From Syncephalis fuscata (Eukaryota; Zoopagomycota; Zoopagomycetes; Zoopagales; Piptocephalidaceae): 21,029 nucleotides of DNA. Below the pieces are notes generated by a model. It was given only the letters and a program-made list of their open reading frames with translations, did not search any database and was not told where the DNA came from. The translations under genes and the position numbers were made by a program. Below are positions 1 through 19,348 of this stretch, in pieces (position 1 is the first letter of the stretch; each line of letters begins with the position of its first letter). The DNA lies in contig JAHLTZ010000156.1 of assembly GCA_025786725.1 (NCBI GenBank), forward strand, positions 1 through 21,029. Direction: 5' to 3'.

Positions 1-480
1 TGTACGCTATTTGTATGTATGCAGATATTGGACCCGAGTCATTCAGTGGAAGTGACAGCAAAAACACATTATCGCTTTTATAAAACCAAACAATATACTT
101 GTTTTCACCAAGTAGTTAGACCTTGTAATAAAAAATACGACTAATGTGTCTATCTCTATCATATGTGTACTGAATTATTATCATTATTGTGTTATTACTG
201 TAAATGACTAGCAGATTGAAGTAAAGGCCGGGCAGATTATGTGCTATTTTGTATGCATGCAGATATCGGGGCCCAAGTCATTCGGTGGAAGTGACAGCAA
301 AGGCATCATTATCGTTTTTACAAAACCAAACAATATACTTGTTTTTATTAAATAGTTAGATCGTGTAACAGAAAATACAGAATAATATACCTATCTCTAT
401 CGCATATGCACCGGATTATTACCATTATTGTTTCATTCCTGTAAATGATGGGCAGCTTAAAGTAAAGACCAGGCAGGTTA
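1..480. repeat. Tandem duplication, two copies of about 240 bp
   Basis: Bases 1-238 and about 239-480 align nearly end to end. Both contain the blocks CAGTGGAAGTGACAGCAAA or CGGTGGAAGTGACAGCAAA, ACCAAACAATATACTTGTTTT, CCTATCTCTATC or its variant, and CTGTAAATGA. I estimate about 80-85 percent identity by eye, so the duplication is not recent. No open frame is shared by both copies. It lies just upstream of the microexon gene and may be part of its distal promoter or a fragment of a repeat that starts outside the window. Confidence 0.85.
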
Positions 481-774: not shown

Positions 775-3547
775 ATGAAGCTTTCCATTGCCGTCGTTTG
801 CACCATTGCCATTGCGCTTGTGGCCGTCACAACCATGGTGGATGCTAATCCAGCGTTAGTTCGTCGTGGTGGTATGTTGCAATAACAATAAATATGCCAT
901 ATCATTATATTTACTAACAGTATTGCTAACTAATGATTATAATAGCCAGTAGGTTGTATTATATACTACTTGACTATAAATTAACTATATTATTGATTAA
1001 TTGTACCGTTTATTTAATATTAATAGAGGGTAAGTTGTACTATATATTGCTTAACTATACATTAACTATGTGCCATATACTGTATTTATCAACAACTTAA
1101 TATTAATAGAATGTAAGTTGTATTGTATATCAATTGATTACTTAATAATTATATACTTTGTACTGTGTGCATCAATGTTTAATACTAATAGGCAGTAAGT
1201 GATATTGTATACTAGTGACCTATAAATTAATTCTATACCATGTATTATTTGTATCAACAACTTAATGTCATAGAGGGTAAGGTGTATTGTGTATTAACTG
1301 GCTATGAACTAATTTTATATTATCCCCGTGTATATCAACAATTTAATATTAATAGAATGTAAGTTATATTGCATATTAATTAATTATTCACTAATCATAT
1401 ATTATGTACTGTGTGTACCAACGGCTTAATAATAATAGGCGGTAAGCAGCATTATCTGTTGCTGACTTATAAATTAATTATATACCATACACTATGTGTA
1501 TCAATAACTTGATGGAATAGTTAGTAGGTAATATTACATATTAACTGACTATACATTAATTATATACCATGTATTGTGTGTATCAATAATTTAATACAAT
1601 AGAAAGTAAGCTATATTATATATTAACTAATTATTCACTAATTATATCTATGCACTGTATGCATCAACAAATATTAATAGACTGTAAGTAGCATTGTATA
1701 TTGGTGATTTATACATTGATTATATACCACTTATTGTGTATATCAATAACGTAATATTAATAGGCTGTAAGTACCATTATATATTGATGGTTTATAAATT
1801 AATTATGTGCCATGCACTGTGTATCAACGAATTAATATATTAGTGAGTAAGTAACATTGCATATTAACTGGACTATACATTAATAATGCTATTTACTAAT
1901 TGTACCGATTATTTAATATTAATAGATGGTAAGTATTATTGTATATTAATTAACTATACATTAATTATACTATTCATTGATTGTATCAATCGTTTAATAT
2001 TAATAGGGGGTAAGTGATATTGTATATTAACTGACTATACATTCACTATGCTATTTACTAATTGTACCGATTATTTAATATTAATAGGCTGTAAGTGATT
2101 TTGTATATCAATTAACTATACATTAACTATACTATTTACTGATTGTACCAATTATTTAATATTAATAGCTAGTAAGTGATATTGTATATTAACTGAATAT
2201 ACATTAATCATGTTACTTGCTGATTGTACTAATTATTTAATATTAATAGAACGTAAGTGATATTGTATATTAAATGAATATACATTAGTCATTCTATTTA
2301 CTAATTGTACCGATTATTTAATATTAATAGCCAGTAAGTGATATTGTATATTAACTGACTATACATTAACCATGTCACTTACTGATTGTACCAATTATTT
2401 AATATTAATAGCTGGTATGTTATATTGCATATTAACTGACTACATTAATAATGCTATTTACTAATTGTACCGATTACTTAATATTAATAGCTGGTATGTT
2501 ATATTGTATATTAACTGACTATACATTAATCATGCTATTTACTAATTGTACCGATTATTTAATATTAATAGATTGTAAGTGATATTGTATATTAGCTGAC
2601 TATACACTAATAATGCTATTTACTAATTGTACCGATTATTTATATTAATAGATTGTAAGTGATATTTTATATTAACTGACTATACATTAATCATGCTATT
2701 TACTAATTGTACCGATTATTTAATATTAATAGGCTGTAAGTGATATTGCATATTAACTGACTATACATTAATTATACTATTCATTGATTGTACCAATTGT
2801 TTAATATGAATAGGGGGTAGGTAGTATTGTATATTAACCGAATATACATTAACCATGCTATTTACTGATTGTATCAATTGTTTAATATTAATAGATAGTA
2901 AGTGATATTGTATATTAATTGGCTATAAATTAATTATGCTATTTGCTGATGATACCGATTATTTAATGTTAATAGAATGTATGTGAAATTTTGGATCAAT
3001 TGAATATTCACTAATCACATGCTATTTATTGTATGCATCAACAAATTAATATTAATAGGCAGTAAGTAGAATTATATATTAACTAAATATGCACTAATTC
3101 TATACCATGTATTGTACATATAAATAACTTAATATAAAAGGACGTAAGTTGTATTATGTGTCAATTAACTACTTGCTAATTATATATTATGTATTATGCT
3201 TATCAATGGCTTAATATTAATAGAATGTAAGTCATATTGTATATTAATTGAACATTGGCTAATTATATACCATGCACCATGTATATTAATAACTTAATAT
3301 TAGCTAAATGTAATTGTATTGTATATTAATTGAGCATTGGTTAATTATATATCACATATTGTGTACATTAATAATTTAATATTAATAGGCTGTAAGTAGT
3401 ATTGTATATTGACGGCTTATACATTAATTATATACCGCTTATTGTGTATATCAACAACTTAATATTAATAGACTGTAAGTAGCATTGTATATTGCTGCCT
3501 TATAAATTAATTTATGACATATAACATCTTTATTTGTAAATACAGAA
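775..3547 (+). CDS. Secreted cysteine-rich peptide encoded by a signal-peptide exon plus 32 tandem microexons
   Basis: Exon 1 (775-871) encodes 32 codons plus one base: MKLSIAVVCTIAIALVAV and onward, a classical signal peptide. A short NPALVRR pro-segment follows, ending in a Kex2-type dibasic site at a GTATGT donor. Then 32 microexons follow, each preceded by a TAATAG-like acceptor and followed by GTAAGT or a close variant. They start at 946, 1027, 1110, 1192, 1274, 1356, 1439, 1521, 1603, 1681, 1764, 1844, 1926, 2007, 2088, 2169, 2250, 2331, 2412, 2491, 2572, 2652, 2733, 2814, 2895, 2976, 3059, 3141, 3224, 3304, 3389 and 3472. All are 3 nt except 3304-3309, which is 6 nt. In phase 1 they read 33 residues without a stop, with cysteines at mature positions 4, 7, 11, 23, 27 and 32 (CX2CX3CX11CX3CX4C). 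The stop is T3474 plus AA at 3546-3547. The product is 65 aa. Function is unknown; an effector, antimicrobial or signalling role is possible. I recognise no family, although the CX3C pair recalls helical-hairpin peptides. Transcript proof is not available here. Confidence 0.85.
872..3545 (+). repeat. Tandem array of 33 introns (about 81-bp units, each intron plus microexon)
   Basis: The repeat unit is a whole intron of 71-80 nt (most commonly 78) plus 3 nt of exon. Each intron has a donor (mostly GTAAGT; GTATGT at 872, 2415, 2494 and 2979; GTAGGT at 949, 1524 and 2817; GTAAGC at 1442 and 1606; GTAAGG at 1277; GTAATT at 3310). A TACTAAT or related branch-point motif follows in many units, about 28 nt before an acceptor that usually reads TTAATATTAATAG. 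Units between about 1850 and 2900 are very similar to each other; the outer units are more diverged. The intron body is conserved while the three bases between AG and GT vary. A plain minisatellite would not be expected to put all its variability in exactly that triplet. Confidence 0.9.
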
Positions 3548-5099
3548 TAATCGATGGTTTCAAGACATCAGCATTGGTAGTGCAATCAAGTCACTATTCC
3601 AATACACTTTAGGTATATATTCGGTGAAAAGCAAGGCCATTTGACAATTACGCCGTCCAGTCTATATATATCAAGTTTTGGCCAATGCTCCGGTTTATCC
3701 AGTCTTTAATCAATGGAATCATTATGTTACCAACATGTTTGCATCTAGTTGTCACTATTTAACTGTGCAAGCTTATAGTAATAAACTTATGGTTTCATTT
3801 TAACTATATACAATCAAATTGCTATATCTATAACCATGTTTTATTTGCATTCAATAATGACAATTATCAATCAAATAATTAAATTAATAACAAAATGTGT
3901 ATAATTATATCGCCTAAGCTATAGGCATAGATTGTTATGGATGGTAGTAAAGCTATCATTATCATATAGCCAAATAATAGTATGCTGAAATTAGAATAAA
4001 TACGCTTTTTAATAAAACATGGCAATAAAGCATACAGTATTATAAAACAAAATAAATAGACAAAACGAATATGTGAATAGTAATAACAAAACTATACTGT
4101 ATCCAATTGATCAAGAGTAATAAACGAAATAAATCAAAATCTACTAAAGAAATACAGTTAGCAATAAACCCTTAGCTTTTGTTAATATAGTTTCTACAAT
4201 TTATAATATTAATGATATAGATGAACATATAGTACAAGTATACAAGATAAATATGTACAGTACAATAATAATGATAAATAAATAGCTTAATAACCAATGA
4301 CACTCAACAGCCAGTTTCATCTTCAATAAAGCGGATACTTCGTTTAAATGTGTGGCTATTATAGTTATTTAACTGCTAAATCACATTAAACAGTCAATAG
4401 TGTGCTCAATATTGTGGAAAGTTATCTTTATTTAGTTGATAAAAATATCATAAGATTCAATACAAATCAAATGGTTTAAATGATTCGCCACAGCTCCCTT
4501 TTAAGCTTTTTTGCCATATTACATAACTTTTCTAAATTATGACATTGGAGCGACTACTGCGATGTTTAAGAATGAATGTTACAAGTAGATTGTTCTAGTT
4601 TGCCAATGATAAATGTCATGTTGACGGTTTTATTTTGCATATCTCCCCTCTTGCTTGATACACCAACTAATTAACTTGATTTAATCAAAACAGTAATGCT
4701 TTCATGTAATTCGGAATTGTTTAATTACTAAATCTGATACCTGAAATGCTCTAAATAAGCCACTCTAATTTTATTTGTTGGTTAAATTTTATATTTTAAA
4801 AAATATTTATTAATTGAATCGCTTTTGTTTGCATTAAACTTTATTTATTTATTTTGCTAGTTGTTTCGTTAGTAGTTTGTATTTGTTCAATAAAAACGTT
4901 TATTTCAATATTAACTACTGTTTTAATACAATTAATGCTAATCTTTACATAGCATGTTTTTGTATTGTATTTTTGAGTTGCATTTGTCACAAATATATTG
5001 TTGAAAGTCTTTTAACAAATAAAACACAATTAGCATTGCTGTTGATATCGCTAAAATTAACTAAACTATGTAAATAAGCAAAATTGGTTTCAATTGAAA
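3548..5099. other. 3' UTR of the microexon gene, then AT-rich intergenic DNA
   Basis: The first 230 bases after the split stop are less AT-rich than what follows and probably form the 3' UTR. A polyadenylation-type AATAAA lies at 3780-3785. From about 3800 to 5100 the DNA is very AT-rich with many stops in all frames. The only sizeable open stretch (4877-5077, 66 codons) is a low-complexity AT-driven frame rich in Asn, Ile, Leu and Phe and looks non-coding. I see no RNA gene here. Confidence 0.5.
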
Positions 5100-5440
5100 A
5101 CATGCTGTTATGTACAAAAAACATAGTTATAGTGTTTTCATTTGATTAATTTGAAATTCACGAGGCTAATTATTGTTTTTGTTGGTCATGTATAGAAAAA
5201 TTGATCAAATATCGATAGAAGCTATATGATTGTAATTCCATATCATTTCGCATTTGTTGTTGCTATGTCTACGTACAGTGTGGATTATTGCATCTGAATG
5301 ATTTTTCTATTTTCTAATATTCTACTATTGTATTTTAAGCATATTTGTGCTGTAAGATTAATATTAATATAATTATTATAAATGTCGTTTATTAAACAGC
5401 CACTTTCCCTATAGCTAATCTAACTAAATAAGAAGTCAAA
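5100..5440 (-). repeat. Dispersed AT-rich repeat, inverted copy C
   Basis: The reverse complement of about 5250-5440 matches 16945-17110 almost base for base, including a run through CAGCACAAATATGCTTAAAA and the block around TCATTCAGATGCAATAATCC. The reverse complement of about 5100-5250 continues the match to about 17110-17240, through the CTTCTAT...ATCTTTCTACACATGGCCAACA segment in diverged form. It therefore belongs to the same family as the direct copies near 11170 and 16740 but lies in the opposite orientation. It has no coding capacity. Element type is unknown; a non-autonomous transposon relic is plausible. Confidence 0.7.
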
Positions 5441-5691
5441 GTAAAATAGCTCACTAATGTAAATAATTTATTAGTAGATTCATGTGATTTAGTGTCAAAA
5501 AATCAAAGCTAACATTTTTTACTTAATTGAACTACACATTTGCTATTCTACTAAACATGGAACTGGATGGTGAATGCTATTAAATATCAAATTACAATGC
5601 TTTCAATACTTTACAGCAACAATAATATGGATCAACATTTATTAACATATACACTAACATATAGCCTCTACCTATTCATCCACTTGATGAT

Positions 5692-6083
5692 AAAATTCCA
5701 CTTATTACTTTTGGGGCTACTTGATTTGCTACTTTTATGAAAGATAAGGTTGCTGGACTGGCCAATCGTTGCAAAAAGGTGCTCAAACTGCTGAGTGACA
5801 AGGACTTTTGGTTATTGTAAATATTAACGAGTACAATACATCAAAAGTCTGTTCCAAATGCAAGAAAAAGGAAATGGCAGGTTTACATCTGGAAGAACGC
5901 AAAAGCACAATGCATAGCGTATTTGTTTGGCAAAACAATGATTGTCGTACGGTATAGCAGTGTGATGTTAATGCCAGCAGAAACATGCACAGTATATTCA
6001 GTATAATGGCCGGTGGTGAACCAAGGCCTTCTGATTTCTTACCACCTATTATTATAAAAAGTCAAACTGACACTGTTGCATAA
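5692..6083 (+). pseudogene. Decayed 3' fragment of a Fanzor / OrfB-type (TnpB-related) nuclease gene
   Basis: Two overlapping frames carry the relic. Frame one (5692-5820) reads KIPLITFGAT, a stop (TGA 5722-5724), then MKDKVAGLANRCKKVLKLL. After a frameshift near 5817, frame two reads NINEYNTSKVCSKCKKKEM and later NNDCRTV, a stop (TAG 5955-5957), QCDVNASRNMHSI and GGEPRPSDF, ending at TAA 6081-6083. The order (EYxTSKxCxxC, then a second Cys pair, then DVNASRN with an Asp) matches the zinc-ribbon and RuvC-III end of IS605 OrfB/TnpB proteins and their eukaryotic Fanzor relatives. The second Cys pair has lost one Cys (Trp in its place), and the usual Arg before DVNA is Cys. In life this would be an RNA-guided DNA endonuclease; here it is dead. 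The N-terminal two thirds is not recognisable upstream. Confidence 0.7.
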
Positions 6084-6768
6084 ACATCATAATTAAATTA
6101 TAACATTTTATTGTAAGTAGCATGAAATACTGTTTAACATTTATTAACATTGATATCAAATGGAAACAGTGCTGATTAATTAAGACACTGATTAATTCAA
6201 TCGAGTTGATATAATACTACTTCAACAGATACTACTTCTTAGTAGTAAAAACTAATCGATGATTTATTATTCGAGTTATTGATTTTTGTCCCCAGTTTAA
6301 GGATGGAGAGTCAAAGTACAGTAGCTTCATCAACCTAGTATAAACATGACTATTAAATTTAGTAAAAACTTTATTAATAAATGCGTAAAAATGTGCTAAC
6401 TAGTGGGAAAAAGATCATTCACGTTACCTAAAATGGGCATAACAATGTGTCTTATCAGCAAATCAGCCACCAGACCATGTGAGTGAGTAATGGTTGATCC
6501 AAATGACCATTGTCAGTTACACAAATTCTTGGCAATTTTGTTCGATTAAAAAATGAACACGTTGCTAATTTCACATTCCTAATGGGATTGAAAAGAGGCC
6601 GAATTTCGCCCTTTTCCTTTTTAACTTTACTACTATTCACCACATTATCAACACACACACACACACGCACATACTTATATTTACACCTGGTTCAATTTGT
6701 TTGTTTATTTGTCATTATCTAGCATTATTAACTAGATTATTGCTCAGTTCACTTTTGTTTGCTAAGGT
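6084..6768 (+). promoter_or_regulatory. Upstream region of the HAC1-type gene
   Basis: Bases 6084-6450 are AT-rich without a convincing frame. From about 6580 the plus strand becomes pyrimidine-rich (CCTTTTTAACTTTACTACT), followed by a CA-dinucleotide run and TTTGTTTGTTTATTTGTC. This is a plausible promoter and leader. The start codon at 6769 is in the context AAGGTATGG, with G at +4. Promoter function is inferred only from position and composition. Confidence 0.4.
6651..6670. repeat. (CA)n microsatellite
   Basis: A run of about ten CA dinucleotides, interrupted once by CG, lies about 100 bases upstream of the bZIP start codon, probably in its 5' leader or promoter. Confidence 0.9.
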
Positions 6769-8268
6769 ATGGCTCACGTTTACTATCCCGTCTCGCCCAG
6801 CGCCTCGGATTTGGATGACGCACAGGCTATCAATCCTATAGCTGTTGACGCTGAATTGTTTTTTGACGATAATAGCAGCGACAGTTGCACAACAGTCCCG
6901 CAGTATAACGGTCGTATTCTTCGTAAACTGCTTTCTAGCGACCTGCCCATGTTTGCGCCCAGCTCTTCTGGCAGCCTTGCCAGCTCTCCGTCCATTGATG
7001 CATTGAAGATTAAGCCTATTAACGTTGCGCTTCCTATGTTTGCAGCGATCAGCCCGGTCAGCGATCTGGCCGACATGAGCGACGAAGGGAGCACAGGTGG
7101 TGCCTGTGAAGATAGTCAGTCGGACGATGCAGCAAGCACCGCCGACTACTCTTCGTATTCTCGTCAAAAGCCTGGCCGTAAGCGCAAAGGAGAGGAGCGG
7201 AAACCGGAAGACCAAGCGCGTATCCGTATGTTGCGCAACCGAGCTGCGGCACAAGCATCGCGTGAACGTAAACGACAACATGCTGCAGAAATGGAGGAAA
7301 CAAACAAACGATTACGCATCGATAACGATGAATTGAAGGAGCGGGCCGAAGCAGCCGAGAAAGCACAAATGCTACTTAGCAATCAAGTAGAGCTGCTGTC
7401 TAAACAAGTAAACGATCTTTTAATGATGTTTACACCGTCCAATTCTTCCATTTCTAATGAGCAAACTTTACCTTATGACAATCTATCTCTTGTTTCTAAT
7501 GAATCTAATGACAAACTGACAGCCATTCAACCTAGTGTCGATTTATTATCCGACAACAATTCCTCTTCTCTTCTTTCCGTCTTCAACCATCTTCTTTCGA
7601 ATCCCCCCACAAATGATGTAATGGCATCGGTAGACGGTCTTGGCGGATCAGAAGTATCCCCAATGTTAGTGCAGGACACTAGCATCTCCCGGCAGCGGAG
7701 ACCGTTCTGCTCGATGATCCACTACAGTCCATTTGTATTCCATCGCTATCCGAATCACTTCACACAGACGAGACGGTGTCCGGCCACGGTCACACCGAAC
7801 AACAGCTATTTGAACTATTATTTGGCGAGAATACCGAGTCTTCTAATGACACCACTGTTTCTTTCTAACGTTGCATCATTGTCATCCGCTCTAACCACCT
7901 CAGCAGTGTCTGTAGCGTCGATGTGGGTGCAATGGGTTAGAACAGTTTGTACATTAGTGCTACGGCTATGTTTGTCATTTGGGTTCTATAGTGATACGAT
8001 ACGTCGTGTTTGGCCATCAATGTTACCGTTGAACGGCTCCTTTACACGAAATAATCGATGTCATTACAGTTGTTCCAAATATACTTTACCGTTAAGGTCA
8101 GGTAGATTTGGTTGTTTATTCTCCAGTGAAGTGATCTTGCCACTTACAGTACCTCGTTTATCAGCGAATGGTCATTTTGTTGATTTAGCGGCTGTTTGTG
8201 CAAAAGATACGCATTATGCAAACAAACCTGCTCCATTGATGCCGGGTAAACAACGTCTATCTGTTTAA
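6769..8268 (+). CDS. hac1: HAC1/XBP1-type bZIP transcription factor (full unspliced reading frame, 499 aa)
   Basis: HAC1-type factors drive unfolded-protein-response genes in the nucleus after Ire1 removes a short intron from their mRNA. Residues 1-130 are acidic and Ser-rich. A basic stretch (KPGRKRK, about 134-140) precedes the bZIP basic region at about 151-170, whose core NRAAAQASRERKR is the HAC1/XBP1 signature rather than AP-1 or CREB type. The zipper follows at about 176-217. No spliceosomal intron is needed. The codons around 305-308 coincide with an Ire1-type stem-loop. Beyond residue 308 the unspliced frame continues for 191 codons with a long hydrophobic stretch (about 355-407) ending in TAA. 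The spliced product is 360 aa (see the entries at 7685 and 7710). The identity is confident; expression of the full 499-aa product is not certain. Confidence 0.85.
   Translation: MAHVYYPVSPSASDLDDAQAINPIAVDAELFFDDNSSDSCTTVPQYNGRILRKLLSSDLPMFAPSSSGSLASSPSIDALKIKPINVALPMFAAISPVSDLADMSDEGSTGGACEDSQSDDAASTADYSSYSRQKPGRKRKGEERKPEDQARIRMLRNRAAAQASRERKRQHAAEMEETNKRLRIDNDELKERAEAAEKAQMLLSNQVELLSKQVNDLLMMFTPSNSSISNEQTLPYDNLSLVSNESNDKLTAIQPSVDLLSDNNSSSLLSVFNHLLSNPPTNDVMASVDGLGGSEVSPMLVQDTSISRQRRPFCSMIHYSPFVFHRYPNHFTQTRRCPATVTPNNSYLNYYLARIPSLLMTPLFLSNVASLSSALTTSAVSVASMWVQWVRTVCTLVLRLCLSFGFYSDTIRRVWPSMLPLNGSFTRNNRCHYSCSKYTLPLRSGRFGCLFSSEVILPLTVPRLSANGHFVDLAAVCAKDTHYANKPAPLMPGKQRLSV
7685..7713 (+). promoter_or_regulatory. 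Ire1-type non-spliceosomal intron and 5' stem-loop of the hac1 mRNA
   Basis: Bases 7685-7689 (TCTCC) pair perfectly with 7697-7701 (GGAGA). They enclose the 7-nt loop CGGCAGC, which fits the CNGCNGN loop that Ire1 cuts after the third base in yeast HAC1, fungal hacA and XBP1. That puts the 5' cut at 7692/7693, exactly between codons. A second CTG/CTC site at 7709/7710 would release a 17-nt intron (7693-7709), a length of 3n+2 like hacA and XBP1 introns. The downstream frame opened by this removal has a stop at 7680-7682, so the switch must happen after that point, which is where the loop sits. The 3' site is only a partial match to the consensus and its stem is weak, so the exact 3' cut is less certain. 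Confidence 0.75.
7710..7868 (+). CDS. hac1: C-terminal exon of spliced (active) Hac1, 52 codons
   Basis: After removal of 7693-7709, codon 308 (CGG) is joined to CTC at 7710. Translation then runs LDDPLQSICIPSLSESLH and ends with EQQLFELLFGENTESSND and a few more residues before TAA at 7866-7868. The segment is acidic with spaced bulky hydrophobics (LFELLFGE), as expected of a transactivation tail. It overlaps the unspliced frame throughout, so the same 156 bases are open in two frames. Active Hac1 and XBP1s gain their activation domain by this kind of frame switch. The reading is seen directly; the splicing itself is inferred. Confidence 0.7.
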   Translation, partial: LDDPLQSICIPSLSESLHTDETVSGHGHTEQQLFELLFGENTESSNDTTVSF

Positions 8269-9235
8269 GATATGTTACTGTTGTCACCGTTGCACTTGGA
8301 CAGTAGAAAACAATGCTCATCTTAAGACACAAAGCAGTCACTTGGATCGCTAGATGATATCAAAGATAACAGCACTTTAAGTGGTAATTCGGTTTGTGCT
8401 TCGTTTAATCCCGTTTACTTTTTTTGAAGCTTGGCTTTAACTGTGTATGTTATTTCGAAACTTTTCGATCTTTTTATTGAATAGTCGTTGATTATCTCTT
8501 GATATTTTCTTTGTTTGCACTTCGTTTATACCAGTAACATCTGTAACCAATCTTATACTGATGAGTGATATAAACAATAAATAAGTTATTACTTAATTTC
8601 TATGACAATGGAACAGTAAAATACAAATGAATTATGTAAACTAAAGTATATGATCATCAAAGTTGTAACACATCATTGGCTATTTGAGTCGTATTAAATT
8701 ATTAGCATCTCACAATTAACTGCATTCATTAAATTGTGCATGCTATAACTTTAACATCATAATTCGTATGCTTCTCGTTGTATGTTCATCCTACAATATA
8801 TCTTTTTATGATTTATGAAAAACATATTATTAATAAAAGTAAAACTAATCCCAACTTACAAATTTACCATTATAACAATAAAATATTTATGTTTATTGCT
8901 GTTGCGGTAACTTCATAAACTATATTGTTGGTTACGGTGTCAATTAATTAATCGGCTTAGTAGTGACAAACCTTATATTAAATAACAATTTGTTCTATAA
9001 TTTTTTGTCAACAACTCATCAAATTCTTAACTAATTCTTAAACCATATTTACTTGTAAATAAAATAATAATATCTACACTGTACTTCAATAGGCATACAT
9101 AACTGTGTAACCATTATACTGTAAATAGAATAAAACAGCTCACAACCATGCATTGCCTTTATTTCTCACTTACATCTATTGCTGTCTATTCCTTTTATGT
9201 CGTATCAATTTTAGTACAGTCATTTCTGGTCAGCC
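8269..9235. other. Intergenic: hac1 3' UTR and AT-rich DNA
   Basis: Stop codons are frequent in all frames and I see no conserved coding segment. ATAAATAAG at about 8578 (AACAATAAATAAG) is a plausible polyadenylation signal for hac1. The rest is unstructured AT-rich DNA up to the broken F-box-like gene. Confidence 0.5.
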
Positions 9236-10998
9236 ATGCCTTTAAACGTTTATAGTAAACGTTTGTGGCAAAATCGTGATGCTTTGCTGTATTTGTGTCG
9301 GTTTATGGAAGGACAAGAGCTGATACTCTTTGCTAGTAGCTGCCAAATTATTTATTGAACAATAGTTGATCGTCCTGTTTATTAGGAACGACAATATAGA
9401 CAAACATTTTGCTTAGGCAATCAACGTGAACAAGAATGGCTTACATGGTATAAGTGGTACATCAGTACTACAACAAAATCAAAAAAATCTACACCTAGGT
9501 AAATCAAACAAAACAAGAACATTTATCATCTACTATTGCAATCATTGATAATAGCGACAATGAATTTATACTATTTGCCAATGATTTATCACCAAACCTT
9601 AATTTTAATAGTACTCAATGGTTTTATGCTTATTATCAGCGTCGACAGACTAATCTTGGCTTTATGTCGGGTCAATTTAAAAAAAACAAATGTGCCGACT
9701 GCCAGTTAATGACAACGCTCAGTTAAGGCTAATTGACGTGAATCCGTGGTATGCTTTAGTATGGAACAAACGAAATTCAAAATTTTGATCAATTCATTAA
9801 AAATGAAAACGAAACTTTTGATATTGTAGATGACTATCCTATTTTTTCTTGAAGCGGTAAAGCTTCAAGTGAGCAGGAAAATCATAATAAGAAAGTTATT
9901 GTAGTTTGGGCTAATGCTGGCTATTCATCTTCTTGTTTTATTTTTCTCGAATGCAAAAAGAAAGGCGAGCAAGAGCCTGTAAAGCCTAGATTAGTTGCTA
10001 TTCATAATCATTTTATGCTTTTACGAACTATATTTAGTCAAAAGCCATACTGGAAATACGATTTATTTGATTTGGAGCAGCATCGATGGATAGAAGGCCT
10101 AAAATTACACCAGTATAATTCGTGCTCTAATATCCAGCTTGCTTCTTTTAGCCAGTGTCAATTGGTGGCATGAACAATAATACGAAACTTTGTAAAAGAT
10201 GTCAATAATTCTACTGCTACTGCTACTCAAGATTCGCAAGATTTTGATAGTGGCAATCAATTAAAGCAAATACAATGGGAGCTATTTGATGTTAAAAGAA
10301 ATTAATTACAATGCAAAAATATATTATCTAACCAGGTCAGCATTCCATATCACGCAGGCACTATCATCAAATCCGATATGTACACAAGCAAAGTGTGCCT
10401 AGTCACTGTATTTGATGCAGATGATTTGTCAAATTACTGCTACTATGAAGAATTTAGCGCCTCATTGTTTCTATTTGCATGGAGTAATTTTTCATCAAAA
10501 AATTCATTAAAATTGCTATTTGACGCTAGTGATTCTGTTCAATCGCTTCCAATCAGTAGATCTGATCAAGGGCGTATATTATGGAGCCGAAATATACGTA
10601 GTGATGTTATTACAAAAATATACAGTGAAAAGCTAACTGTTGTTCAAAACATTGGAATATTTGACGTGCTCGATGCACGAAATGAAAGTTTATTATGTTC
10701 AATTGCTTTTCCATTTTACAAAAGATTTATACCTTTTATTGGACCTTTATGCTCAATGATTGATGGAGAAAAAGGACAGAGCTGGTTTGTTGATATGCGT
10801 ACTGGCTGTACCTACAATTCGCCAGTTTGTCTTACTACCCACCAAACTGGAGGTTATAATAAAACTCAATCTTTAGGCGTTGTCCGAACAACACATTTAC
10901 CACCACCAGGTCAATATATGAAAGGTAAACTGTCCAGTTATCTGGTATCAAGTCCCTTTATTGGTCGGATTGACGCGAGCAGCAATGGTATTTATTAA
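9236..10998 (+). pseudogene. Broken F-box-like protein gene
   Basis: From ATG 9236 the frame reads KRLWQNRDALLYLCRFM, then EGQELILFASSCQIIY, a stop, TIVDRPVY, a stop, ERQYRQTFCLGNQ and EWLTWYKWYIS. The layout (Leu-rich start, short helix pair, W..RQYRQTF, then a WxxWYK motif) resembles F-box-like families that expand in some fungi. In-frame stops are at 9356 (TGA), 9383 (TAG), 9500 (TAA), 9850 (TGA), 10171 (TGA) and 10303 (TAA). Frame shifts fall near 9505-9541, 9700 and 9775. The last segment (from 9781 in one frame, with 10378-10998 fully open, 206 codons) ends normally at TAA. The ancestral protein was about 580 aa. The downstream sequence has no recognised domain. F-box assignment is tentative; the decay is clear. 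Confidence 0.65.
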
Positions 10999-14624: not shown

Positions 14625-16541
14625 ATGTCTAATCCCAGCCTCGAGAAAGACGATCCTTCTTCCGATCAACCTACAGATGTCATGAATATGGATGAGGATG
14701 CCGTAGGCGATGATAGTAAAGGAGATGCTGAAGTTGATGAATCTATAATTTTGCCTGCAGCCACAGACACGTCTATAGATCATACCATGCTGACCGAAGA
14801 TCCGCCAGGTGGCCTATCATCGCCAGAAAGAGCGTACACACCAAATTCATCACGAGCAATTGACGATGCCATCGATCCGGCAACACCAGCCGAAGTGTTT
14901 ACGCCTCCGGCACACGCACTTATCTCTACAGCCACTTCCTTATCTTCCTCCGTGGCAGTCACTGCTTCTTTGATGATGCTCGACAGTGCCAATGGTAGTT
15001 TACCAAGCACACCGGGCGCTATGGAAGCTGTAACGATTGAGGATATTGTCGTTGGATGCAAGGCATTTGTTCATCTATCTAGCGAACAGAAAGCCGCCGG
15101 TGAAATGGTAGATCGTAAAGCGGAAATTCTATCAATTCGTCCTTCAATGTCCAAGCCAGGTAGCGGTGCTATGGACTACTACGTTCATTATATTAATTTT
15201 AATAAACGTCTTGACGAATGGATCACCGACGAACGATTGGATCTTACGCAAAGAGTTGAATTTCCACGAAGTCGCCGTGGTAAAATTGAAGGAGCCACTG
15301 GTGGCAAGATGGCCAATGGCAAAGAGACAACGGAAAAAGCTAAGCGTGGAAAGAAAGCTACTGGCCGATCTCGCACTGCCACGAAAAGCAGAATAGGAAA
15401 GCGTACGGCAAAGAATAGCAAGGATATTGATGCTGGTACGCCAACACCCATGTCTCGTATTCGGTCGATGGATACATTGCCAGACACACCCACACCCGGC
15501 GCCCGTTGGAAAGCATCTAAAGACACCGATACGATCATGAACGAGGCAGAAGAGGACGATGCAGCATTTACTGAGGCGGGTGCCAAGGAGATGGCGAACG
15601 GTGATGAGGAGCCTGAAATATTTTCAAAGGAAACAGAGCTAGAACGACTTCGACACGGCGGGTCAATGACACAGTCTATCACGGAAATTGCCCGTGTACG
15701 CAACATCAATCGGATTCGTATGGGCCGGCATGAAGTCGATACGTGGTATTTTTCACCATACCCACAAGAGCTTACATCACAGGATACTGTTCATTTGTGC
15801 GAATTTTGTTTATCACCATTTGACAGCGAGTTCCAGCTAGTGCGCCATAGTAAACGGTGTAAACTGCAACATCCACCAGGCAATGAAATCTATCGTCATG
15901 AAGATATTAGCTTTTTTGAAATTGATGGCCGACGTCAACGTACTTATTGTCGCAATCTTTGTTTGTTAAGCAAGCTATTTCTTGATCACAAAACACTCTA
16001 CTATGATGTAGATCCATTTTTGTTTTATGTTATGTGCCTAACAGATGCCCATGGTGCTCATATTATTGGCTACTTTAGCAAAGAAAAAGATTCAGCCGAA
16101 AATTACAACCTGGCGTGTATTCTTACTCTACCTCAATATCAACGGAAAGGCTATGGACGTGTACTTATTGCCTTTTCCTATGAGCTAAGCAAAGTGGAAG
16201 GAAAACTTGGCAGTCCAGAAAAGCCGTTATCAGATCTTGGCCTACTTTCCTATCGTGCTTACTGGACTGAGGCTATTGTAGAACGTTTAATTCGGTTTCG
16301 AGGCGATGTCACAGTAGAGGAAATAGCCAATTCAACGGCCATTACACCACAAGACGTAATGCATACGCTACAAAGCATTGACGCGCTCAAGTATTATAAG
16401 GGCCAGCACATTATCTGTCTAAGTAATAAGGTTGTGGACGCGTATCGTCGAGCCGAGCAAAAGAAGCGGCGATGTATTCATCCGGAATTACTCGATTGGA
16501 AACCACCTATTTTTACTCCGGCCCAGTTACGTTTTGTCTAA
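14625..16541 (+). CDS. esa1: MYST-family histone acetyltransferase, Esa1/Tip60 type
   Basis: This is the catalytic subunit of NuA4-type complexes, which acetylate histone H4 (and H2A family) tails in the nucleus using acetyl-CoA. A disordered acidic N-terminus (1-135) precedes a chromo-barrel (about 139-215; VGCKAFVHL ... YYVHYINFNKRLDEWI). A basic linker (215-265) and an acidic stretch follow, and the MYST domain covers about 357-635. The C2HC zinc finger uses C392, C395, H408 and C412. The Lys autoacetylated in the family is K456 (FLDHKTLYYDVDPF). The catalytic Cys is C498 (NLACILTLPQ), the acetyl-CoA loop is QRKGYG (506-511) and the general base is E520 (SYELSK). At 638 aa it is longer than yeast Esa1 (445 aa) because of its N-terminus and linker. 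It has no introns, unlike its neighbours. All catalytic residues are intact. Tip60-type naming is equally valid. Confidence 0.95.
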   Translation: MSNPSLEKDDPSSDQPTDVMNMDEDAVGDDSKGDAEVDESIILPAATDTSIDHTMLTEDPPGGLSSPERAYTPNSSRAIDDAIDPATPAEVFTPPAHALISTATSLSSSVAVTASLMMLDSANGSLPSTPGAMEAVTIEDIVVGCKAFVHLSSEQKAAGEMVDRKAEILSIRPSMSKPGSGAMDYYVHYINFNKRLDEWITDERLDLTQRVEFPRSRRGKIEGATGGKMANGKETTEKAKRGKKATGRSRTATKSRIGKRTAKNSKDIDAGTPTPMSRIRSMDTLPDTPTPGARWKASKDTDTIMNEAEEDDAAFTEAGAKEMANGDEEPEIFSKETELERLRHGGSMTQSITEIARVRNINRIRMGRHEVDTWYFSPYPQELTSQDTVHLCEFCLSPFDSEFQLVRHSKRCKLQHPPGNEIYRHEDISFFEIDGRRQRTYCRNLCLLSKLFLDHKTLYYDVDPFLFYVMCLTDAHGAHIIGYFSKEKDSAENYNLACILTLPQYQRKGYGRVLIAFSYELSKVEGKLGSPEKPLSDLGLLSYRAYWTEAIVERLIRFRGDVTVEEIANSTAITPQDVMHTLQSIDALKYYKGQHIICLSNKVVDAYRRAEQKKRRCIHPELLDWKPPIFTPAQLRFV

Positions 16542-16739: not shown

Positions 16740-17470
16740 TATATCTTTTATTTGCTCATTTTATCATTTTCTTGATACTTTTAAATATAATTAAGCACTT
16801 ATTCATCATTATTCCATGTATAATATTACATCCAACATTAATTAATTTATATGTAATTATCAATACAATAATTTAATCAATTAATTATCTTTATTATTGC
16901 TTTAATATATATATTGTCATTATGATATTAGTTGTTCAAAATGCCATTTATTTAGTCAGATTGGCTATAGGAAAAGTGGCTGTTTAATAAACGACATTTA
17001 TAATAATTATATTAATCTTAATCTTACAGCACAAATATGCTTAAAATACAATAGTAGAATATTAGAAAATAGAAAAAATCATTCAGATGCAATAATCCAC
17101 ACTGTACATAGATGCAACAACACATGCAGAATGATATAAAATTGCCATCATACGGCTTCTATTAATATTCAATTAATCTTTCTACACATGGCCAACAATA
17201 ATAATAATCGGCCTTAAATGTTTAAAAGAAACCATATATTATGTTACATTGTTTATTTAAATGTATAATATTATTACTAATACAATGTTCTGTTATATTT
17301 AATTAATTCTATTTTATGAAAATGATAAGGAATACGAATATTATGTAAATATTTATTGTAAATAATAATTTAAATACAAATCAATCTAACTAAATTATTA
17401 CAATTAATTGCGTAAAATAATTTATTGCACTGAAGTAGAAAACGCAAAGTAAATGTTAACATCAAGCTAA
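16740..17470 (+). repeat. Dispersed AT-rich repeat, direct copy B
   Basis: The left and right thirds match copy A at 11170-11890 in the same orientation. The central part (16945-17240) instead matches copy C at 5100-5440 in inverted orientation. Copy B is therefore the most complete of the three in this window. It is non-coding and about 730 bp. No clear terminal inverted repeats or target-site duplications can be fixed by eye. Confidence 0.7.
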
Positions 17471-17545: not shown

Positions 17546-19348
17546 TTAAACGCCTATTAATATACCGCCAAAATGTACAACGGTATAGCTGATAGCAGAA
17601 AATGCTATAGAGAATAAAAGTGAAGCGGTATTGGTGGATGCAGAGCTAGCCTTTTTTGAAGGTCCACTTGGAGGTCTATTTGGATCGACTTGTGCACTGC
17701 GTAAGACATTCTGGCAAGAAGCTTCGATTTTTTTAGGTGTAGCAAGTTTTGCGGTACCTGCAAAACTGCAAGAATTACCATCTTTCTTGCTCTTTCCATA
17801 GGCGGCGTTGTAGGCCCAGGAAAGTCGTTCAACAGCCGAGCAGCCGCTATACTTGCCGTATTGGCCAGACTTGGTATTATGGCTAATATCGCTACAGTCA
17901 ATCTGGCCACAAATTGTTGCTAATGATTTTCCTGCAGTCATATTAATTTGTTCTGGAGAAGAGCCTAGAGCATGTTCTTCAACGTGGCATGTAAGTGTAT
18001 CAATCATACATTTGCATGCTTCTTCAGATGGTGTCGATGGTAGTTCGCCGCTAGAATGCCAACTGGCCGTTGTTGCTGGACACTGCGATGCTTCACGCCT
18101 ATCCTTTAGTGCGTTCATTTTTATTCCCTATAACAATTAAACATTAGCAATGGTTTAAAACATTGGCTTTTTGTAAAATAAATGAAGCGTAACTTACCAC
18201 TGGCCTTACAGCGGCATAAGCCGATTTCAAATTGTGAAAATCTTGCATCTTGGCCACCTGTTTTTCATTGACAATTTGAACTAAACCATAATTGTTTTCC
18301 TCGTTGCTAAATTCGTAGGCAATGCCGCCGGAAAGAACATCCGACATTTGCGGACCAAATATGGCTTCCACCTTGGCAATGTTAGTCAATATGAGATATA
18401 ATAAATGATGCCAAACTTACTTCACCGAACGTTCGAGGCATCGACAAATTGCATCCAAACTCTGTAAGGAAGATGGGAATGCTATATTGTTGAAACTCTT
18501 CGTGACGATCTTTATAACCAGATGTTTCAAAGGTCGCTTTGGTGCCGCACCATTCGTATAGGTTGACGCCGTAGAAATCGGCCCGTTCTCCTGGTGCACC
18601 GCAGTTAAAGTAGTTTAGTAGTTCCATCCGAATTGTCGGATCGTCGTTTGAAGCATAGCCGACGGGCAATGTATGTCCACCCGGACTTTTTTGATAAATG
18701 TAATTTTTAATATCACGAAGTGTAGCTTTTACAAATGCCGATGCACTTGTTGTATTAACTTCATTGCTGACTTCATTGCCAGCAATAAAACCAAGCATGT
18801 TAATATATTTTAAAAACGCGTCGGCAGTTTTCTTGTAATGCTGTAACAGTGTATAATCATAGGTTGGTTCAGCTCGGTTGATACTTTGTTTCGGAGTCGG
18901 GAGATCTAGTAACAAATAGATACCGGCATCAGCTAACATTTTCATGCAAGCGTCATGATTAGCTTCGTTATCGACCTATTAGTCGGTTATTAGCACTGCT
19001 ATTTGTATTATGGACTTTAATATTTACCTGATAGACTCGAATAGTATTAATGTTTAGTTCTTTAAGAGCAGGAACATCTCGCCGGCAGCCCGCCTCGTTT
19101 GCCAGTGGATCGCTAATTTGAGCGTTTCCACGAGGCTGGTAGGCTACACCTTTGACAAAAAATTCATCCTTTGTCACATCGTCAAACATTCTATGCCCCT
19201 TGATGACAATTGGATTAAGTGCATTGATGCCATCTATTGCAGTGACCAGCAAGAGTCCAAGCAACAGCAGCAATAGTGTCAATGGTTGGCGCATTGCCTG
19301 ACGAAGACCAAAAGGAGTGTCGCGGTATTTTGAATTTAATGAATACAT
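17546..19348 (-). CDS. GPI-anchored beta-1,3-glucanosyltransferase, GH72 with X8 domain, four exons, 543 aa
   Basis: Gas1/Gel-type enzymes cut and re-join beta-1,3-glucan chains in the wall outside the plasma membrane. Exons on the minus strand are 19348-19028, 18975-18421, 18371-18198 and 18127-17546; introns are 52, 49 and 70 nt, all in phase 0. The signal peptide is the Leu-rich run at about residues 23-43; Met19 (at 19294) would give a more typical start than Met1. The GH72 domain follows (KGVAYQPRG, then NTIRVYQVDNEANHDACM). It has the acid/base E175 in GFIAGNEVSNE and the nucleophile E279 in FLTEFGCN, 104 residues apart (101 in yeast Gas1). SGGIAYEFSNEENNYGLV ends the catalytic unit. 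The last exon holds the Cys-rich X8/CBM43-like region from about 388 (CKCMIDTLTC ... CGQIDCSDIS ... YSGCSAVERLSWAYN). A Ser-rich stretch and a hydrophobic C-tail (about 519-543) follow, as expected for a GPI signal. X8 places it with the Gas1/Gas2-like subfamily. Confidence 0.93.

Follow-up and report, generated by a model that had tools for sequence, protein, structure and literature searches.

Arrays of putative single-codon exons in a large family of cysteine-rich peptide genes of the fungus Syncephalis fuscata

Can the mature part of a peptide be encoded by some thirty consecutive exons, nearly all of which are one codon long? The question is raised by an 81-bp tandem array (positions 1012–3512, 30.7 copies by Tandem Repeats Finder) in the stretch of DNA analysed here (henceforth referred to as the window), which is the whole of a 21-kb contig (C64; 21,029 nt) of the 28.95-Mb, 299-contig assembly of Syncephalis fuscata (order Zoopagales). 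Syncephalis species are parasites of other fungi. A preliminary description of this DNA had taken each unit of the array for an intact mini-intron and the triplets left between the introns for the codons of a cysteine (Cys)-rich prepropeptide. From a comparison of the locus with its relatives throughout the assembly, we propose that each codon is probably spliced separately and in sequence, which would yield hypervariable, probably secreted Cys-rich peptides of a large S. fuscata family, and we give this reading a probability of about 90%.

The splice sites of the window were located with a splice-chain parser that joins donors and acceptors, with site profiles trained on loci of the family (first on the window alone) and with exon length left free (1–24 nt). 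Because the donor and acceptor profiles were aligned separately, exon length was not taught to the parser. The chain recovered in the window consists of exon 1, 33 introns of 71–80 nt, 32 microexons and a terminal exon that starts at 3546; the introns are 74–80 nt long except for the last one, which is 71 nt long and ends at 3545, and most donors read GTAAGT and most acceptors AATAG. The array of 81-bp units is therefore real, being found by Tandem Repeats Finder and recovered as an intron chain by the parser. The count of 32 microexons given previously also holds, though not the length of 3 nt for all of them, since 31 are 3 nt long and one, at 3304–3309, is 6 nt long, as the text of that description itself partly indicates. 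When the exons are joined, the conceptual product is MKLSIAVVCTIAIALVAVTTMVDANPALVRR followed by GAKECKECVKNCLNGGSKPTADYCWDKCRQSKCY, with a TAA stop that spans the last junction, and the mature part (after the dibasic RR) has the six Cys reported before in 34 residues, not 33. The phase set by exon 1 (phase 1) contains no stop, as had been claimed, in comparison with one in phase 0 (a TGA microexon) and five in phase 2. By itself, freedom from stops in a single gene is weak evidence, with an expectation of (61/64)^33, or ~0.2. The median chain score was +678 for 15 real arrays and −57 for the same arrays after one dinucleotide shuffle each (the profiles having been trained on the same loci), and the shuffled arrays gave only 1 exon of 3 nt among 21. 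The features of the locus are as follows, in window coordinates, with the microexons as given by the parser:

1–774, + strand: upstream region common to the family, with a tandem duplication of ~240 bp (about 1–239 and 240–480); it matches 11 of 12 intronless loci (see below) and 6 tested microexon loci at 68–80% over >530 bp
775–871, + strand: exon 1, encoding MKLSIAVVCTIAIALVAVTTMVDANPALVRRG plus the first base of the next codon (phase 1), with 128 matches to its first 34 nt; by eye, a signal-like sequence, a short pro-part and the dibasic RR
872–945, + strand: intron 1, 74 nt, GTATGT...AATAG (parser and genome-wide intron-1 pattern)
946–948, + strand: microexon 1, CCA
1027–1029, + strand: microexon 2, AGG
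1110–1112, + strand: microexon 3, AAT
1192–1194, + strand: microexon 4, GCA, completes Cys 1 of the mature part
1274–1276, + strand: microexon 5, AGG, low-scoring acceptor
1356–1358, + strand: microexon 6, AAT
1439–1441, + strand: microexon 7, GCG, completes Cys 2
1521–1523, + strand: microexon 8, TTA, low-scoring acceptor
1603–1605, + strand: microexon 9, AAA
1681–1683, + strand: microexon 10, ACT
1764–1766, + strand: microexon 11, GCT, completes Cys 3
1844–1846, + strand: microexon 12, TGA, a stop in phase 0 only; low-scoring acceptor
1926–1928, + strand: microexon 13, ATG
2007–2009, + strand: microexon 14, GGG
2088–2090, + strand: microexon 15, GCT
2169–2171, + strand: microexon 16, CTA
2250–2252, + strand: microexon 17, AAC
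2331–2333, + strand: microexon 18, CCA
2412–2414, + strand: microexon 19, CTG
2491–2493, + strand: microexon 20, CTG
2572–2574, + strand: microexon 21, ATT
2652–2654, + strand: microexon 22, ATT
2733–2735, + strand: microexon 23, GCT, completes Cys 4
2814–2816, + strand: microexon 24, GGG
2895–2897, + strand: microexon 25, ATA
2976–2978, + strand: microexon 26, AAT
3059–3061, + strand: microexon 27, GCA, completes Cys 5
3141–3143, + strand: microexon 28, GAC, low-scoring acceptor
3224–3226, + strand: microexon 29, AAT
3304–3309, + strand: microexon 30, CTAAAT, the sole 6-nt exon, with weak sites, directly before the Cys 6 codon
3389–3391, + strand: microexon 31, GCT, completes Cys 6
3472–3474, + strand: microexon 32, ACT
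3475–3545, + strand: last intron, 71 nt, GTAAGT...AAATACAG (parser and comparison with locus L009)
3546–3660, + strand: start of the terminal exon (AATAATCG...), with the in-frame TAA spanning microexon 32 and this exon; 3' homology with 9 of 12 intronless loci

Twenty-two loci of the family were parsed as far as a terminal exon; L016b, L026 and L045 were parsed as well, and the sequence fetched for them holds no terminal exon; L046, L050 and L055, which are short pieces that include exon 1 and intron 1, were left unparsed. The 22 loci contain 21 to 42 microexons per array and 700 exons in all, 658 of which are 3 nt long and 32 of which are 6 nt long (10 have other lengths), and in 14 of these loci the reading frame runs uninterrupted from exon 1 up to a stop no more than a few codons from where the terminal exon starts. 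Stops and Cys were counted in 12 clean loci, from which the close copies L009 and L012 and eight loci that do not read cleanly (named below) had been dropped and in which both members of the close pair L011/L013 were retained. In phase 1 the 389 codons of the clean loci include no stop and 70 Cys (six in each of 11 loci), whereas phase 0 gives 1 stop and 1 Cys and phase 2 gives 39 stops and 20 Cys. When the microexons were shuffled 5,000 times within genes, the stops never numbered fewer than 14 and the Cys never more than 45. Every microexon of the clean loci starts at codon position 2, because exon 1 is 94 or 97 nt long and the exons that follow are 3 or 6 nt long; with all introns in phase 1, every codon is split 1+2 over two exons.

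Searches of the assembly indicate a large family. A query made up of exon 1 and the beginning of intron 1 (775–960) gave 40 scored DNA matches of 83–100% identity (from 232 first-look candidates). Genome-wide, the first 34 nt of exon 1 matched at 128 places with ≤3 mismatches (reversed control, 0), a 32-nt junction pattern (AG-NNN-GTAAGT) matched exactly at 307 (reversed control, 0) and the start of intron 1 at 110 (control, 1). Among the 100 intron-1 sites listed, 76 pair with an exon 1 and 24 have no listed exon 1; two of the latter were read, and proved to be a degenerate sequence with no start codon (L061) and a diverged copy (L062). In 73 of the 76 pairs the intron starts 94 or 97 nt from the first base of exon 1, that is, in phase 1 (haplotype copies included), and the remaining three, at 92, 93 and 96 nt, are frameshifted copies that include L018 and L025. 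As the loci are homologous, the phase common to the 73 is one inherited fact and not 73 independent ones; one of them reads ACG for ATG (C135:363887) and another is L012, which has lost its first donor. Of the 100 junction sites listed, 92 lie ≤6 kb downstream of an exon 1 on the same strand, six others lie downstream of further exon-1 matches and two (on C57) are near none. By extrapolation, ~73 loci with ~30 units each would amount to roughly 2,000 codon-sized exons, haplotype copies included. Searches with the spliced window peptide and with a profile, which need shared words of five residues, returned 13 proteins, all from S. fuscata and none from another species. The annotated proteins P0009, P0010 and P0012 have the prepro part of exon 1 in common and quite different mature parts; therefore, the prepro scaffold may serve more than one type of peptide.

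Intronless relatives occur in the same genome. A search with the annotated protein P0001 found at least 150 places of two kinds, in which the match either covers residues 1 to ~33 (exon 1) only or runs onward through the mature part in an open frame. We read 27 intronless loci, near-identical pairs included, and examined the flanks of 12 (among them the near-identical pairs L029/L030 and L038/L039). Upstream, 11 of the 12 align with the window over >530 bp, and L029 does so over the 154 bp available; the alignment of exon 1 reaches to ~5 nt from its 3' end in 11 (it stops earlier in L033), and 3' homology resumes at window 3546–3548 in nine, while in L034, L035 and L036 the 3' alignment starts 8–12 nt away from the start of the terminal exon. 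The intronless paralogues thus have promoter, exon 1 and 3' flank in common with the microexon loci, and most of them encode the same Cys framework in one open frame. Since both flanks are common to the two kinds of gene, the array is the main difference between them. The window and intronless L042 are 92% identical in exon 1, 94% in the 3' part and 48% in the mature part, i.e. a hypervariable centre lies between conserved ends. At E<1e-3, 11 of 20 loci had a spliced mature peptide that matched an intronless one (8 of 17 once the close copies L009, L012 and L013 are removed), the best match being 1.9e-11 (L011 vs L054); the controls gave 0 of 20 in frame 0, 1 of 20 in frame 2 and 0–1 in five shuffled orders. 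When the spliced mature part of L011 was searched against the genome in six frames, it matched four places in open frames, one of which is L054. Five Cys columns are invariant in an alignment of 26 members that we selected (from the 27 intronless loci, 17 or their protein; from the 14 open spliced loci, 9; near-copies and some divergent members were left out), most of which have, by eye, a signal-like N-terminus and the RR, the latter being absent there from L033, L043, L048, L054 and L058.

Both copies of the upstream ~240-bp duplication (window 1–480) align to upstream regions of paralogues. A tree of 400 bp upstream plus exon 1, with 54 rows (28 of microexon type, four of them typed by exon 1 and the start of intron 1 only, and 26 intronless), was star-like with 7 label changes; it is compatible with a single origin and does not settle the order of array and intronless states. 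That the intronless copies arose by simple retroposition of mRNA was set aside, as >530 bp upstream and the 3' flank are common to them and the microexon copies; recombination with complementary DNA (cDNA) or an ancestral intronless state are possible.

The splice signals also appear to be constrained. Three close gene pairs were compared (window/L009, L010/L012 and L011/L013), with the first donor placed outside the donor class, so that its loss in L012 is uncounted. The six bases of the donors differ at 2 of 522 positions and the last eight of the acceptors at 10 of 696, in comparison with 160 of 5,772 in the intron bodies; donors are thus less diverged than intron bodies (p=1.4e-4), as are acceptors (p=0.043). 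Across 448 triplets of 15 loci, which comprise 52 different triplets, the entropy is 1.84, 1.91 and 1.94 bits at the three bases, while the flanks read GTAAGT in 386 of 448, GCAAGT in 4 of 448 and AATAG in 384 of 448. GT (or GC)...AG ends with a conserved donor and acceptor are the pattern of U2-type introns. The frame of one gene, as argued in the preliminary description, which did not recognise the size of the family, would not alone suffice to carry the claim; the prepropeptide proposed there, with a mature part made from codon-sized microexons, is now strongly supported by the 12 open clean loci, their Cys, the intronless paralogues and the conservation of donors.

Several observations weigh against this reading. 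The splicing model was drawn from genomic DNA. In the window, acceptor scores are low before microexons 5, 8, 12, 28 and 30, and the donor after microexon 30 is also weak. Eight of the 22 parsed loci fail to read cleanly: in L014, L016, L024 and L027 the length of one piece is no multiple of 3, a single nucleotide is deleted from exon 1 of L018 and of L025, and L015 and L023 hold long unresolved stretches. L012, counted among the 14 open loci, is without its first donor, and 13 are open when it is left out. Clean locus L021 has four Cys in place of six, and intronless L047 and L056, both outside the 26-member alignment, do not show the Cys framework. Between close pairs the microexons are no more diverged than the introns (10/273 vs 160/5772, p=0.35), and over the initial 600 nt of the 3' part the three pairs show differences of 8%, 16% and 8%, where the arrays differ by ~3%. 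For the window, no contiguous match to its spliced mature part emerged from a six-frame search of the assembly, a result that says little because no candidate passed the first look. The predicted structure of intronless P0001 is poor, with a predicted local distance difference test (pLDDT) score of 63 and a predicted template modelling (pTM) score of 0.30; its helices were placed at 5–22, 36–47, 52–58 and 65–68 (at that pLDDT of 63). Lastly, the public gene models P0002 and P0003, at microexon loci, do not show the microexon structure: they begin like L015 and L050, on the same contigs, and their sequence after exon 1 is unlike the spliced framework. These models seem to miss the structure (L015 itself parses uncleanly), so that similar genes may lie unseen elsewhere.

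What else could such an array be? Since the units do form a tandem repeat, some members are degenerate and the model was drawn from DNA, positions 872–3545 could be a minisatellite lying in one large intron or in non-transcribed DNA, with only exon 1 and the terminal exon expressed. A direct join of these two exons would leave no mature peptide, whereas the intronless paralogues encode ~30–45 residues at that place; moreover, the triplets give the Cys framework of the family in the phase of exon 1 and shuffled triplets do not, donors differ less than intron bodies between close pairs, and the triplets are near maximal entropy between near-invariant splice signals, which together make a minisatellite very improbable. 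The disrupted loci and the degenerate copies L061 and L062 would be expected if the microexon loci were decaying copies, pseudogenes or relics and the intronless genes the working ones. We consider such general decay improbable in view of the frames kept open at 14 of the 22 loci (or 13), the absence of stops from the 389 codons of the clean set and the constraint on donors. Least credible to us is that the ~78-nt segments are removed from the DNA by programmed excision: short, precise and repeated interruptions fit in principle, whereas GTAAGT...AG ends with a rare GCAAGT are a spliceosomal pattern and the assembled genome holds the interrupted form. To our knowledge, no programmed DNA excision system of this kind exists in fungi.

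A different matter is whether all the microexons would be included. Donors resemble one another, as do acceptors, and nearly every skip would preserve the frame, so that the skipping of subsets of single-codon exons could give many in-frame variants per gene, as has been proposed for the microexon genes of schistosomes, which are held to make variants in this way (PMC5825161). The spacing C-x2-C-x3-C at the start of the mature part is conserved in most clean loci and therefore suggests that full inclusion is what selection sees; we regard extensive alternative splicing as a tentative possibility that is rather unlikely.

On the reading that we prefer, in which the codons are spliced one by one, exon 1 would supply a signal-like sequence, which is conserved, and a short pro-part that closes with the dibasic RR (recognised by eye), at which cleavage may occur, and the mature peptide would come from the microexon array, nearly all of one-codon exons between putative U2-type introns of mostly ~78 nt. 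The spliceosome would remove the introns one after another by intron definition, in the manner of a ratchet, because a stretch of 3 nt can hardly be flanked by two complexes at once. The joined triplets would then encode a peptide whose Cys mostly follow the framework C-x2-C-x3-C...C-x(n)-C-x(n)-C. As each unit of intron plus triplet equals one codon, gain or loss of a unit would change the length of the loop without a frameshift, and the triplets would diverge afterwards. The peptides may act in some interaction, possibly with the host fungus, as the signal-like sequence, the number of genes and their hypervariability suggest.

Comparison of introns indicates how the arrays change. Towards either end of the array, introns are often similar to those in the corresponding position of other genes; in mid-array, where the loop from Cys 3 to Cys 4 is encoded, they are often similar to their neighbours in the same gene. 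For introns of the same gene, identity between the accompanying triplets was 0.341 at 91–94% intron identity (43 pairs; chance 0.284), 0.485 at 94–97% (22 pairs) and 0.646 above 97% (8 pairs); for introns of different genes, the corresponding values were 0.354 (109 pairs), 0.772 (11 pairs) and 0.929 (9 pairs), and in neither case are the pairs independent. Introns of one gene that are 91–94% identical thus flank triplets that match at near-chance level. Within genes, it appears that units are duplicated and that rapid change of their codons follows, and the growth of the arrays looks tandem. The window and L009 are syntenic over window 940–9592 at 94.5% identity and have 32 and 35 microexons, respectively, the difference lying within the Cys 3–Cys 4 loop. 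Among 15 loci, 19 of the 21 exons of 6 nt directly precede a Cys codon, for which common ancestry is the only explanation that we found. A 6-nt exon precedes the first Cys in 12 of the 15 loci, whereas in the window and in L016 an intron separates two 3-nt exons at this place; therefore, the gain or the loss of one intron seems to have left the reading unchanged. Introns of 493–498 nt in L013, L017, L018 and L027 carry what is apparently the same insert (416 nt by comparison of L013 with L011), and the frame around it is intact in L013 and L017.

How does this family compare with known systems? Conotoxin-type families combine a conserved prepro part with a hypervariable Cys-rich mature part, a layout that the S. 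fuscata genes resemble in a different kingdom; the conotoxin-type families have no codon-sized exons. A ratchet point of Drosophila leaves no exon in the mRNA, unlike the S. fuscata sites, at which three coding bases are kept between acceptor and donor. In recursive splicing in Drosophila, a juxtaposed acceptor and donor are used stepwise (PMC8605326). In plants, APC11 and VPS55 have a 1-nt microexon that is spliced constitutively, for which intron definition and recursive splicing have been proposed and of which intronless copies are known (PMC4674806, PMC8831610); there, one tiny exon lies in a normal gene, whereas in S. fuscata ~30 in a row would form the whole mature product. The micro-exon genes (MEGs) of schistosomes have most of their coding region in short symmetric exons of 6–36 bp, and their products are secreted or exposed and fast-evolving, a proposed route to protein variants (PMC5825161). 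The S. fuscata family likewise has most of its coding region in short symmetric exons (658/700 of 3 nt and 32/700 of 6 nt), and differs in that nearly all are 3 nt long, below the MEG range, that the unit is a tandem repeat, that intronless paralogues occur in the same genome and that the organism is a fungus. The protein profile search, which needs shared five-residue words and was no direct comparison with MEGs, gave S. fuscata proteins only. The bicycle genes of aphids form a large, fast-evolving family of putative effectors with ~17 exons on average, many of them small internal exons that almost all start at codon position 2 (PMC9168663). The S. fuscata microexons also start at codon position 2, a likeness of gene structure, and the exons of these insect genes, unlike those of S. 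fuscata, are not single-codon exons. Functional microexons were said to be undescribed in filamentous fungi before the one reported in PMC11121469, and among the open-licence PubMed Central papers listed for fungal microexons, micro-exon genes, Syncephalis, Zoopagales, recursive splicing and single-codon exons we found no such codon-by-codon array described.

With one codon as their unit, these loci are microexon genes of an extreme kind. A broader interpretation, for which we see the balance as even, is that of a "one exon, one codon" system in which units may be duplicated, deleted or skipped in-frame, so that a single prepro scaffold would give a large, fast-changing library of Cys-framed secreted peptides, with ~30 consecutive 3-nt exons spliced by a strictly sequential ratchet. 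If the reading holds, mature proteins would be assembled from single-codon exons, dozens in a row, in scores of genes, and the practical lower limit of exon size would be broken as a general rule. The family would then offer a natural test bed for how the spliceosome handles neighbouring sites too close to be bound at once, and a new route of peptide evolution in which the unit of a tandem repeat equals one amino acid. As intron-rich and intronless copies sit side by side, intron gain and loss are testable within one genome.

Other features of the window were noted in passing. A long open reading frame (ORF) at 6769–8268 contains a bZIP-like region that by eye resembles Hac1; downstream of ~7690 a different frame continues with a coherent C-terminus (LPAAETVLLDDPLQSI...TTVSF, then a stop), and the CNGCNG motif occurs twice, with overlap, at 7690 and 7693. 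The frame switch together with these motifs therefore suggests an unconventional intron of HAC1 type. The translation of 5750–6010, by eye, resembles what we take to be the C-terminus of a protein of TnpB/Fanzor type, and a dispersed repeat at 16948–17214 has an 87% match in the opposite orientation inside L009. Finally, ORFs at 14625–16541 (+ strand) and 17546–19348 (− strand) resemble, by eye, a MYST-type acetyltransferase and a glucanosyltransferase, respectively.

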